From the NCBI RefSeq assembly GCF_022834715.1, contig NZ_BQKC01000001.1, positions 1,772,501 to 1,836,500 on the forward strand: a stretch of DNA of 64,000 nucleotides, in the 5' to 3' direction. Below are positions 26,216 through 30,177 of the stretch, piece after piece. This stretch comes from Granulimonas faecalis (GTDB taxonomy: Bacteria > Actinomycetota > Coriobacteriia > Coriobacteriales > Atopobiaceae). A program made the translations under genes and the position numbers. A model generated the notes under the pieces. That model ran no database searches. It saw only the letters and a program-made list of their open reading frames with translations, and was not told the DNA's origin. Each line of letters starts with the position of its first letter. Position 1 is the stretch's first letter.

Positions 26216-28618
26216 CTACTCCCCCGTAACGGCCTCGACAACGCGCGCCCGCTGCTTCTTGCCGAGCCCGCGCAGGGTGCGGCCGGCACTGATGCCGACC
26301 TCCTCCATGAAGGCCGTGGCACGGGCGCGATCCCAGCCGGGCAGCGCCGAGAGGAACCGCACCACGGTGAGGGAGCGGGCGGCATCGTCCACGGCGTCGA
26401 GCACGTCCGCGGGCGACACGGCACCGGACTTGATGTTGGCGAGCAGGTCGCTGCGAAGCTTGCGGGTCTGGGCGGCCCTGGAGACGGGCTTGACCTCGGC
26501 AGGCGCGGGCTCCGGGGTCGCGGGCGCCTCGGGGGCGGCGTCGGCGGGCGCAGCGGCCTCGGAGGCGGCGTCGTCGTCGGCGGGCGCAGCGGCGGCATTG
26601 GGCGCGGCGGCGCCGCCGGCGACCTCGGGCTGGGCCGCCTTGGGCTTGCGGGAGCGACGGCGGCGGCGCGGCTTGGGGGCGTCGGTCTCGGGGGCCGGCG
26701 CCTCGGCGTCGGGCCGGTCGGCCGCAGGCTCGGGAGCGTCCTCGGGCTTGGGCACCTGGCCGGCCTCGGCTGCGGCATCGGCTACAGCTTCAGGCTGCTC
26801 GGCGGCCTTCTCGGCAGCGGCCTTGGACCGGGTGCTGCGGCGGCGACGCCCGGCTCGGCCGGGGCGCACGTCCTTCTGCTCCGGCTCCGCATCCTGCTCG
26901 GCGGACCGGGCGTCGCCGCCCTCGGCCTCCGCCTCGGGGGCGGGGGCATCCTCGGGCGTGGTCTCGGGTGTGGAGACCTGCCCCTCGGGAGCGTCGGCGT
27001 CGGCCGCGGGCTGCTCGGCGTCCGCCGCCTCCGCGACCTGTCCCTCCGTGTCCTGCCCCTCGGCGGCCCGTTCCTCCGCGGCCTGCCCCTCGGCGCCCTG
27101 CTCGGCCTTGGGCCTGCGGGAGCGGCGGCGACGGCGCGGCTTGGGGGCGTCGGCCTTCTCGGCGGGCGCGGCGTCCGCAGGCGCCTCCGCCCCGACGGCG
27201 GCCTCGGGCTCGGCGGGCTCAACCTTGGGTGCGGCCTCGGCCTTGGAGACCTGCTGCGAAGACTGCTGGGCGCCCTGGCCGTCGGCGGCCTGCTGCCTGC
27301 GCTGACCGCGCGAGTGCTGGCTCTGCTTGCGGTAGGTGCCCTCGCGGCGCTTGCCGTCGTCCTGCTGCCCCTCGCCCTGGCCGCCGCGGCCGGCGGGGAG
27401 GGCCGCCATGGCGGAGTCCACGTCGTAGTCGCTGAAGAGGTCCAGCGCCACGATCTCCTGCTCGAGCTTCACGTTGCGCTCGAGCATGTAGGAGACGAGG
27501 CCGCGGTAGCGCTCGTACTCCAGGAGCTGGGCCAGGAGGTCGCGGTCCTTGGACGTGAGCGGGTGGATGGCCTTGCGGTAGGCCGGGTTCGCCAGCTCGG
27601 CGATGCCCATGTGGAAGAGGCCCACCTCGCAGCCGAGGGTGTCCTCGATGACCTTGTGGGCCTTGAGGCCGGCGTAGTCGATGTCGCCAAAGTGCGCGAA
27701 CTCCACCTCGGGGTTCTGCTCGTGGATCATGCGCAGGAGCGCCCGGTGGCGCGGCGACACGGAACCCTGGGTGTAGATGTAGACGTCGTCGTCGTTGCAG
27801 CGGCGGTAGGCGTCGAGGTTCTCCACCGTGACGATGCGGCGGGCGCGCACGTAGGCGCGGTCGATGTTGGCGAGGTCGGCGTCGAACATCGAGATGCCAT
27901 TGGGCAGGATCGAGGCGTCGACGGCGCCCTTCTGGGTGATGAGCACCACGGGACCCTTGACGCAGATGGTCTTGAGGTCGGCCACGACGCCGGCCTCCTC
28001 CAGCGCTCCCACGTTGGAACGGCTGGCGCTGGAGCCGCGGCGGCGCAGGGTCTGGGCCACGCGCTTGAGGCCCACGCGGTCGAGCTTCTTGGTGTCGCCG
28101 GTGACGAGCAGCGAGAGCTCGCGCGGGGTGAGGGGCGAGTCTACCTCGTCGAGGTACTCGGCGGCCTCCTCGGTGATGCGCGGGTCCACAGGATCCGATG
28201 TGCGGCGGCGACCGTGTCGCTGCGCGTGGGTCTGACCGCCCTGGGACTGGGCCTGCCGCTTGCGGGCGACGGCCTCCTCGGCCCGGGCCTGCTCGGCCTC
28301 CTCCTGGGCCACGCGGGCAGCGAGCTTCTCGAGCTCGTGGGCTGCCTTGTCGGCGTCCTCCAGGGTGACGGTGTCCACGTAGGTGCCCCCGTCGTGCTTG
28401 GACTTGGTCATGCGCACCATGCGCTGGCTCTCCAGCGACTGCACGGCCGAGAAGATCCACTGGGCCTGCTTGCGGGAGGCCTCGTCGTCGTGCTCGAGGT
28501 AGGAAGGTAGGATGTCGGACGGGACCAGGGTGGGCGGCTCGTCGGCGGGGGCGGCCCCGTCGAAGGCGGCACAGAGCCTCTCGAGCAGCTGGTACTTGAA
28601 CGTGTCGGTGGGTTTCAA
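26216..28618 (-). CDS. JetD-like Toprim protein fused to an mIHF-like DNA-binding domain
   Basis: An 800-residue protein. Residues 1-95 look like a winged-helix/JetD N-terminal region, followed by a charged coiled segment (95-125). About 150-395 match the JetD C-terminal (DUF2220) Toprim nuclease domain of Wadjet: VENLDAY (E266), YTQGSVSPRHRALL, HFGDIDYAGLK (D312, D314) and FHMGIAEL. About 400-705 is a low-complexity Ala/Glu/Pro tail with basic clusters such as PKPRRRRRSRRPK. The last ~90 residues resemble actinobacterial integration host factor: IKSGAVSPADVLDA, FLSALPGWDRARA, FMEEVGISAGR and LRGLGKKQRARV. The TTG start has GGAGGT 6 bp upstream. JetA, JetB and JetC are absent within the window. 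Probably a DNA-structure-sensing nuclease or a nucleoid protein; activity is untested. Confidence 0.8.
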   Translation of the reverse strand: MKPTDTFKYQLLERLCAAFDGAAPADEPPTLVPSDILPSYLEHDDEASRKQAQWIFSAVQSLESQRMVRMTKSKHDGGTYVDTVTLEDADKAAHELEKLAARVAQEEAEQARAEEAVARKRQAQSQGGQTHAQRHGRRRTSDPVDPRITEEAAEYLDEVDSPLTPRELSLLVTGDTKKLDRVGLKRVAQTLRRRGSSASRSNVGALEEAGVVADLKTICVKGPVVLITQKGAVDASILPNGISMFDADLANIDRAYVRARRIVTVENLDAYRRCNDDDVYIYTQGSVSPRHRALLRMIHEQNPEVEFAHFGDIDYAGLKAHKVIEDTLGCEVGLFHMGIAELANPAYRKAIHPLTSKDRDLLAQLLEYERYRGLVSYMLERNVKLEQEIVALDLFSDYDVDSAMAALPAGRGGQGEGQQDDGKRREGTYRKQSQHSRGQRRQQAADGQGAQQSSQQVSKAEAAPKVEPAEPEAAVGAEAPADAAPAEKADAPKPRRRRRSRRPKAEQGAEGQAAEERAAEGQDTEGQVAEAADAEQPAADADAPEGQVSTPETTPEDAPAPEAEAEGGDARSAEQDAEPEQKDVRPGRAGRRRRSTRSKAAAEKAAEQPEAVADAAAEAGQVPKPEDAPEPAADRPDAEAPAPETDAPKPRRRRRSRKPKAAQPEVAGGAAAPNAAAAPADDDAASEAAAPADAAPEAPATPEPAPAEVKPVSRAAQTRKLRSDLLANIKSGAVSPADVLDAVDDAARSLTVVRFLSALPGWDRARATAFMEEVGISAGRTLRGLGKKQRARVVEAVTGE

Positions 28619-28818: not shown

Positions 28819-28920
28819 GCCGTTTGGTACTTTTCGGTATGAAAACTCATCTAAACCACCAAATGGGGTGCCGTTTGGTGGTTTTCCGCCCCAGTACCGA
28901 GGAAAAACCACCAAACGGTT
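28819..28920. repeat. Left ~100-bp structured repeat of the bracketed element
   Basis: Begins GCCGTTTGGTACTTTTCGGT, then a hairpin of AACCACCAAAT against GTTTGGTGGTT, then AAAAACCACCAAACGG. Its first ~70 bp are repeated in inverted orientation at the right end (30108-30177). The 28619-28818 stretch before it shows no gene. Confidence 0.85.
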
Positions 28921-29003
28921 CCGAGAACAACCGCGACCTCCCCCGGCGCCGCAAAGTCCCCTAGTATGGGAGCCACCAGTTCGACCGCCTCAGGGAGCTG
29001 CCT

Positions 29004-30020
29004 ATGGGCACCGTGTTTGGCGGCCTGATGGCGAGGGCGTTTTGGACCCTTGGAATCCCGCTCAACCCCCTCTCCCCTTCCCAGACCAGCCTCGCCATGG
29101 CCCGGAGCCGCTGTTCCGCACGAGAGATCAAGCGATTCAGAGAGACCCCCGTCCACGCCGCCGTCGAGGGGTTCCTGCGCGCCGCCGCTGAGACCCACGG
29201 CCCCGCGGAAGGCCCCGAGCCGGCCGTGGACGTGGTGGTGGACACCCCCGCCAAGATCCATCGCGCGAAGGGGGTCCGCTGCCTCTGCTCGACCCTGGAC
29301 CCTCCCGCGGGGAGCCTTGCCGAGGTGGGCGGCTGCGAGGCCGTGTGCTCCCTCACGCCCGCCCAGCACTTCGTGGTGCGCGCACGCGACCTCGACCCGG
29401 TGGGATGTTGCCTGCTCGCCATGGAGCTGTGCGGCACCTACCTGCTGCGCCCGGACCTCCCGGCGGGATTCGCCACACTCCCGGAGCCCCTCGTCTCGGT
29501 GGTGGACCTCGCGCGCCAGACGGGGCGCAACCGGGGGATGCCGGGGGCGCGCCGGGCCCTCGAGGCCCTGACCCACACCTGCGACGGAAGCGCCTCGCCC
29601 ATGGAGACCGCCGTCGTCCTCCTGCTCGTGCTGCCGCCGGAACTCGGGGGCCACGGGCTCCCGCTACCCCGGCTCAACGAGGAGGTCCCGATATCGTCGG
29701 CGTCCTCCCGGCTGCTGGGCGGCACCCGGACCGTGCGCCCCGACATCCTATGGCCCGACGCCGGGCTCGACCTGGAGTACGACAGCCGCTCCTTCCACAC
29801 CCAGCACGACGCCGACCGCGATCGGGCCCGGCGGAGCGCCCTCCAGACCGCGGGCATCGAGCCTCTCTCGCTGACCCCGCAGATCGTGGGGAACGCCGCC
29901 GCCTTCGACGAGGTGGCCCGCCTCGTGGCCCGGCGCCTCTCCATGGCGGCCGAGACCCCCGACCCCCAGGCCCAGGCACAGCTCCGCCAGAGGCTCCTCG
30001 GGACCCACCCGGTCTGGTAG
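29004..30020 (+). CDS. PD-(D/E)XK/DUF559-like protein with AbiEi-like context
   Basis: A 338-residue protein. The C-terminal third resembles the DUF559/Vsr-like nuclease fold: E201 in an N-terminal helix, then RPDILWPDAGLDLEYDSRSF (D247, E258, D260), H265, a D/R-rich helix and a G-I-E-P-L-S-L-T strand, matching the D-(E)-x-D pattern of PD-(D/E)XK proteins. The catalytic Lys is not obvious. The N-terminal part (1-180) may correspond to the AbiEi-type antitoxin-like region described for related actinobacterial proteins, but I am unsure. CAGGGAG precedes ATG 29004. It is the only gene inside a pair of inverted ~100-bp repeats, suggesting a mobile or repeat-linked unit. No adjacent AbiEii-type toxin is present. 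Confidence 0.65.
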   Translation: MGTVFGGLMARAFWTLGIPLNPLSPSQTSLAMARSRCSAREIKRFRETPVHAAVEGFLRAAAETHGPAEGPEPAVDVVVDTPAKIHRAKGVRCLCSTLDPPAGSLAEVGGCEAVCSLTPAQHFVVRARDLDPVGCCLLAMELCGTYLLRPDLPAGFATLPEPLVSVVDLARQTGRNRGMPGARRALEALTHTCDGSASPMETAVVLLLVLPPELGGHGLPLPRLNEEVPISSASSRLLGGTRTVRPDILWPDAGLDLEYDSRSFHTQHDADRDRARRSALQTAGIEPLSLTPQIVGNAAAFDEVARLVARRLSMAAETPDPQAQAQLRQRLLGTHPVW

Positions 30021-30077
30021 GGCCCCACGGCCTGCCCGCCACCGAGGCCGGCGGCCCGCCCACGGCTGGCCGCCGCA

Positions 30078-30177
30078 GCCGTTTGGTACTTTTCGGCCGT
30101 CGACGGAGGAAAAACCACCAAACGGCGCCCCATTTGGTGGTTTAGATCAAATTATATACCGAAAAGTACCAAACGGC
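30078..30177. repeat. Right ~100-bp structured repeat, inverted copy
   Basis: Ends ACCGAAAAGTACCAAACGGC, the exact complement of the left copy's start. Its reverse complement follows the left copy through the TCTAAACCACCAAATGGGG hairpin for about 70 bp with few differences. It begins with its own GCCGTTTGGTAC motif, so the short motif occurs at both of its ends. Confidence 0.85.

Follow-up and report, generated by a model that had tools for sequence, protein, structure and literature searches.

Genes of an AbiEi-like/Vsr-like protein family bracketed by their own dispersed palindromic elements in Coriobacteriia: a possible counterpart of REPIN-RAYT partnerships

The window, that is, the whole stretch of 64,000 nucleotides analysed here (C1:1772501-1836500 in a 2.23-Mb genome), harbors a gene for a 338-residue protein, P0001, which lies between two palindromic elements of the kind termed family A. 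As the first-pass annotation had it, this is the only gene inside the repeats: 29004-30020 is the sole long gene there, no other long open reading frame between the elements being taken as a gene. The features of the locus are the following:

28820-28918, plus strand: left palindromic element, family A, about 99 bp
28820-28834 (+), 28853-28866 (-), 28871-28885 (+), 28904-28918 (-): the four arms of the left element, of the CCGTTTGGTRSTTTT type
29004-30020, plus strand: P0001 gene, 338 aa, with a predicted AbiEi-like N-half and a predicted Vsr/EDxHD-like nuclease C-half; member of a multigene family
29004-29591, plus strand: N-half of P0001, residues 1-196, the proposed recognition half, from the predicted model compared with 6y8q
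29589-29945, plus strand: nuclease-like domain of the C-half of P0001, residues 196-314, from the predicted fold and the invariant residues
30079-30176, minus strand: right palindromic element, family A, about 98 bp, inverted relative to the left one
30079-30093 (+), 30111-30125 (-), 30130-30144 (+), 30162-30176 (-): the four arms of the right element

One element lies 85 bp upstream of the gene and the other 58 bp downstream. The arm pair 28819-28906 and 30090-30177, of 88 nt each and with 1183 nt between, is inverted and 82% complementary, which bears out the earlier claim of inverted, structured repeats bracketing one gene; the inversion had been read correctly, while the length, put at about 70 bp, had been underestimated. 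Each family A element is built of four CCGTTTGGTRSTTTT copies that alternate in orientation (+,-,+,-) at conserved distances, and it owes its direction to an asymmetric spacer. The underlying 15-16-nt word GCCRTTTGGTRSTTTT occurs four times per element in alternating orientation and, allowing at most two mismatches, has 8 matches in the window against 0.03 expected, a number that none of 100 shuffles reached. As single-stranded DNA the elements fold strongly, with -25.9 and -33.6 kcal/mol (z -5.3 and -8.9), and none of 200 shuffles folded as well as either of them. The neighbors of the P0001 gene encode a JetD_C/H2TH protein and a ROK kinase. The former (26216-28618, minus strand) combines a JetD_C domain, the C-terminal domain of Wadjet JetD, with a C-terminal S13-like H2TH domain, both linked by a long low-complexity stretch.

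Family A elements are dispersed through the genome. A pattern search together with a covariance model found 11 of them, counting the two at the gene; the other nine have no family gene within 1.5 kb, and a P0001-type gene with the family A word occurs a single time. According to a rough gene caller, 9 of the 11 lie outside predicted genes. Repeats away from any linked gene, which had been named beforehand as counting against the first-pass reading, do exist: they contradict an insertion sequence, yet they are expected of a REP-type system. The proposed search of the genome and its relatives succeeded in the former and failed in the latter, the full 99-bp element being confined to the source genome among 140 genomes of the same taxonomic family, a set in which this genome alone represents its genus. 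In other genera, the covariance model returned only weak 58-nt hairpins, in five genomes of the genus referred to as g33, with no family gene within 1.5 kb. A variant element (L087, C1:1493217-1493324) has TTTGG changed to TTCGG in every one, or almost every one, of its four arms, a common swap which indicates that arms change together; the pattern would fit a new subfamily word that originated in a single step or through copy correction. The ends of the 10 family A elements that were aligned, read by eye, carry neither a GTAG nor a CGTC tag; in many g33 elements, GTAG occurs within the core (GCAGGTAG).

It had also been suggested that the locus recalls an insertion element with terminal inverted repeats, in which case the gene and its bracketing elements would form one mobile unit of the IS or MITE kind. 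The inverted bracketing of the window gene, shared by the gene at L044, is what this would predict, and the elements resemble MITEs and insertion sequences in being short, dispersed and polymorphic, with inverted ends. However, this reading fails because 9 of the 11 elements have no gene, which leaves one full unit and one gene copy against 11 elements in the genome. Target duplications, looked for at the outer flanks of the window pair, were not found, and these flanks differ. Moreover, the two bracketing elements in g33 have the same orientation instead of being inverted, and synteny downstream of the g33 gene is preserved in three genomes. The elements thus depart from MITEs and insertion sequences in having no transposase, no target duplication seen and a gene that stays outside the repeated unit, and a mobile unit of this kind appears highly improbable.

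P0001 belongs to a protein family found in 131 of the 140 genomes and in 32 of the 35 genera of the taxonomic family, a group of bacteria from gut and rumen, with 1 to 15 members each and about 30 to 40% identity to P0001. The named members are mostly from Coriobacteriia, a few (L130, L132 and L136) coming from bins labelled Clostridia and Lachnospiraceae; at L130, repeated words flank the gene on both sides. A Pfam scan of P0001 gave no family at E<=1, so that the DUF559 part of the original PD-(D/E)XK/DUF559-like label has no support from Pfam; its superfamily call was right in kind, because residues 196-314 are predicted to be Vsr-like (Z 8.3 and 7.4). Pfam, NCBIfam, PADLOC and PHROGs yielded no confident family for P0001 or 18 further members, no Y1 transposase family occurs among their Pfam matches, a PDB sequence profile search gave no match at E<=1, and Foldseek gave none at E<=0.001 with either predicted model. 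In the predicted model (pLDDT 89.9), residues 196-314 align with I-Bth0305I (Z 8.3, 95 aligned, 2.5 Å), NGO0050 (Z 7.4) and Vsr (Z 6.3), and the N-half (approximately residues 1-193/196) aligns with residues 67-195 of the AbiEi antitoxin 6y8q (Z 7.9, 122 aligned, 3.6 Å) and with Rv2827c and the MenAT1 entry (Z 5.2), both fold assignments deriving from second looks with VIA-align at middling Z. All 18 of the 18 members aligned have E201, D247, E258, Y259, S261 and H265 without variation, and four of these residues (E201, D247, E258 and H265) may correspond to the catalytic positions of EDxHD/Vsr-like nucleases. By its predicted fold, the C-half belongs to the EDxHD/Vsr-like nuclease superfamily, with a putative nuclease activity. 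Unlike the nucleases of that superfamily (I-Bth0305I, Vsr, NGO0050), P0001 is fused to an AbiEi-like half, its gene is bracketed by cognate palindromes, lies outside any intron and has no methylase beside it. The predicted N-half fold in turn resembles that of AbiEi/Rv2827c antitoxins, which belong to type IV toxin-antitoxin systems. In contrast to these, P0001 has a nuclease-like half added, matches the C-terminal part of AbiEi alone, the winged-helix domain of AbiEi having no counterpart in the alignment, and has no AbiEii nucleotidyltransferase toxin among its immediate neighbors or the open reading frames between the elements.

Weak profile matches to REase_MTES_1575 (4 of 18 members, E 0.02) and to type II methyl-directed REase (3 of 18, E 0.019), together with the many paralogs per genome, would agree with a role in self-marking or defense, in which a restriction-like nuclease cuts foreign or stalled DNA and the elements, rather than being mobile passengers, serve as Chi-like sites for loading, sparing or control. 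However, no methylase or other partner adjoins the window gene, its neighbors being those named above, and the words differ between close species, with the presence/absence polymorphism and replacement described below, all of which makes this role rather improbable. The fold matches also include mitoribosome proteins, presumably through their Vsr-like RAP domains, and the elements form strong hairpins; P0001 could therefore be an RNA-binding Vsr-like protein of the RAP/FASTK kind whose targets are transcribed hairpins at the ends of mRNAs. Against this, bracketing is two-sided whatever the orientation of the gene, elements undergo inversion, and the word is conserved, not pairing alone, so that an action on RNA is considered very unlikely.

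The other members of the family are associated with other words. In the source genome, 6 of 9 paralog loci (a count without a matched control) are flanked on either side by a repeated 12-mer of their own, which differs from locus to locus: ACCACCAAACGG at the P0001 gene, CCACCCGCAGAA, CGCTCACTGAGC, CCATGCCAAAGG, CCCTTCTCCGCA and GCACCTGAACGC. GCACCTGAACGC belongs to a dispersed high-copy family (125 matches), which also adjoins a broken paralog. ACCTGAACGCGGTTGAGGG, the word of a further paralog, has 125 matches in the source genome against 0 for its reversed control, and CCATGCCAAAGG has 50 against 6; the L032 word is nearly confined to the flanks of its own gene (3 of 4 copies), and at L037 a both-side word is not clearly present. 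L038/L039 represents a broken paralog, and L040 (at 444484 in the source genome), which lies inside a 1646-aa frame, was rejected as probably not a member.

The link between gene and repeat in this protein family is not due to chance. Across named relatives, starting from all 61 loci and keeping the 33 family genes with gaps of at least 90 bp on both sides, a shared word of at least 14 nt is present in both flanking intergenic regions of 11 of the 33, compared with 1 of 81 other genes at the same loci, a control matched for intergenic flanks with genes from a rough caller; the remaining 22 family genes share no such word. In further tests, from which 12 of the 61 loci were dropped for short flanks or nearness to contig ends, a shared flank word of at least 16 nt was found at 14 of 49 family loci versus 13 of 573 controls, and at least five repeated words on both sides at 9 of 49 versus 0 of 857 control windows, the P values being indicative because these control windows overlap and are mostly coding; 15 of the 49 scored zero in a related flank-word test. 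Bracketed examples include genes of Collinsella stercoris DSM 13279 (L135), Coriobacteriales bacterium OH1046 (L139) and RUG12554 (L103). Coincidence would mean that intergenic regions are rich in palindromes and some genes fall between two copies by accident. Several dispersed palindrome families are indeed present in the genome, but the result of the intergenic-matched control, as well as the co-divergence of word and protein and the reciprocal copy numbers in g33, render this explanation scarcely credible.

Of the 19 intact orthologs that one member has in g33, 18 show a both-side word. These words follow a common plan with variations and are distributed, according to the identity of the ortholog to the query, as follows:

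TGAGGGTATGTACAC: orthologs 84-100% identical
TCCGGGTACGTACAC: orthologs 71-72% identical
AGGGTACGTACAC: ortholog 63% identical
GTGTACACGATGCG: ortholog 62% identical
CGAGGTTATGCGG, CCGGTTACGTACAC, CGGTTATGTACAG, CGGTTATGCGCA, GGTATGCGCAA and others: orthologs 57-61% identical

TGAGGGTATGTACAC has 43 copies in G094, 28 in G099, 33 in G100 and 53 in G104, the genomes that hold the sole intact orthologs at least 84% identical to the query, and 0-6 in the other 136 of the 140 genomes, among them G083 (6 copies) and G091 (5), where no ortholog exceeds about 44%. Reciprocally, TCCGGGTACGTACAC is absent from those four genomes and has 12 copies in G090 and 13 in G097, which carry the 71-72% orthologs, 8 in G112, 2 in G098, 1 in G095 and 0 in the other 26 of the 31 genomes searched. 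The copies in G112 (99% complete) lie on contigs C1, C2, C13 and C64 of a genome with no ortholog above about 44%, and are possibly orphan repeats that outlived their cognate gene. A word is shared by 7 of 8 ortholog pairs above 80% identity, by 1 of 4 at 70-80%, and by 4-8 of 38-62 in each bin below 70%. Among the 19 orthologs, the N-half is 56% conserved and the C-half 66%, a difference that fits, without proving it, a recognition half joined to a conserved catalytic half.

The g33 elements share a defined anatomy. Those of G099 have arms W-W and W'-W', with 22-bp spacing, flanking an oriented core of 69-70 nt that contains GTTCTTCTCG plus a CTACCTGCG- or CTGACCTGCG-like motif, and 10 of 15 lie outside the genes predicted by a rough caller. 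Cores at unlinked sites, the gene-flanking elements of four genomes included, are more alike than shuffled cores in 263 of 325 pairs, which identifies them as copies and not as independent hairpins. CTACCTGC-like cores are found near 16 of the 19 g33 orthologs; a universal core motif is not claimed, because their enrichment near family genes of other genera is weak (P 0.007 to 0.04).

Orthologous intergenic sites were compared among G099, G094, G100, G104, G097 and G090, eight sites being queried and four aligned. At site 5, the element is missing in G100 between flanks that are 98-99% identical, with a possible but ambiguous 4-nt direct repeat; at site 8 it is missing in G094, and at site 1 in G097 and G090. 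At the latter site in G100 (L258), a different palindrome family (CCGCCGTGGCAGGGG) replaces the TGAGGGTATGTACAC element carried by three relatives. These are differences of presence and absence, mostly not polarised as gain or loss, and no clean target duplication was found at the four aligned sites. At site 8, the core in G104 is the reverse complement of that in G099 (63/70 matches versus 45/81 forward), and the core in G100 has the G099 orientation (64/69). Absence, replacement and core inversion between relatives indicate that both the presence of elements and the orientation of their cores are dynamic. At site 8, G100 and G104 (L270 and L271) also carry an extra palindromic insert of about 122 bp with the word CGAGTAAGAG, located beside the TGAGGGTATGTACAC element and missing in G099, which represents another element family at the same intergenic site.

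The main rival explanation is that the proteins are AbiEi-like regulators whose bracketing repeats are autoregulation operators, proliferated into dispersed copies that form a regulon or serve as decoys spread by other means, the nuclease fold being perhaps inactive or acting elsewhere. The AbiEi-like N-half and the position of repeats directly upstream of many family genes agree with it, as does the binding of AbiEi and Rv2827c to their own promoters, at two or four inverted repeats of 23 bp, described in a passage of PMC7319586. However, repeats also lie downstream of the genes; the 28-53 dispersed copies per genome are found, in many cases, at convergent or non-promoter gene ends; the proposed nuclease residues are invariant; the part of AbiEi that is matched is the C-terminal domain and not the winged helix; and core inversion and element turnover are unexpected of operators. 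We regard the operator model as unlikely.

The likeness to REP-RAYT pairs noted at first, taken as an analogy, has held up: the palindromes are dispersed, they bracket one cognate gene, and the word differs from gene to gene. Passages of two papers (PMC3116915, PMC8266576) describe REP/REPIN systems with RAYT (TnpA-REP) transposases, also called REPtron, as distinct groups of repeats, each beside its own single gene and with most copies elsewhere. The present system resembles them in its dispersed, extragenic, hairpin-forming palindromes in inverted pairs and, as far as those passages go (PMC3116915, PMC8266576), in the non-repeated gene bordered by its own cognate repeats, in the several unrelated pairs per genome and in the co-divergence of repeat and protein. 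It is not a RAYT system, because its protein is an AbiEi-like/Vsr-like nuclease by predicted fold and not a HUH Y1 (IS200/IS605-like) transposase; the window elements differ further in having no GTAG or CGTC end tag, and the elements here are 99-144 bp long and have four arms that enclose spacers or an oriented core of about 70 nt.

Bracketing by an own word, dispersal, different words at paralogs, co-divergence of word and protein, and turnover between close relatives are observed directly. The interpretation that we somewhat favor is a REPIN/RAYT-like partnership built on an unrelated nuclease, which would maintain and probably spread its cognate palindromes. The proposed system has multiple units, and each unit joins an AbiEi-like/Vsr-like protein to a separate family of palindromic elements in intergenic regions. 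The variable N-half would read the word in the element arms, and the conserved nuclease half would cut DNA at the element, be it at a cruciform, a hairpin or the core; repair or copying of the cut would then spread, replace or invert elements, core inversion being a by-product of palindrome resolution. Acting in trans, the gene would thereby sustain a set of palindromes that are themselves non-autonomous, in the manner assumed for RAYTs and REPINs. Extended further, and with the balance about even, the proposal is that Coriobacteriia-wide AbiEi-Vsr fusion nucleases, with up to 15 paralogs per genome, constitute a second, independently evolved REPIN-like kind, in which private palindromes are spread in trans by cutting and copying, recognition half and arms co-evolve, and nuclease half and core are conserved.

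No description of such a nuclease-palindrome pairing was found in the open-licence PMC literature. The spread of REP-type palindromes and the reason for their retention in bacteria are unsolved questions, the enzyme linked with such palindromes to date being the RAYT transposase. If an unrelated nuclease follows the same genomic logic, it offers a natural replicate, and the features that both systems have in common point to the function of REP systems. With many independent pairs in each genome and a visible code between word and protein, the target words of nucleases could be read from the genome, and many unannotated genes of common gut bacteria would gain a likely role.

Other hairpin families also occur in the window. 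A palindrome of about 40 bp, GCCTGAAAGCGATTGAGGG..CCCTCAATCGCTTTCAGGC with a 2-nt loop, lies at 456-496 and also at about 18962, 20799 and 25795; it represents a second high-copy hairpin family of the genome, related to the ACCTGAACGCGGTTGAGGG family. Copies of CCATGCCAAAGG with one mismatch are located at about 11255 and 60945, this word being the one that brackets the paralog at C1:2030031.
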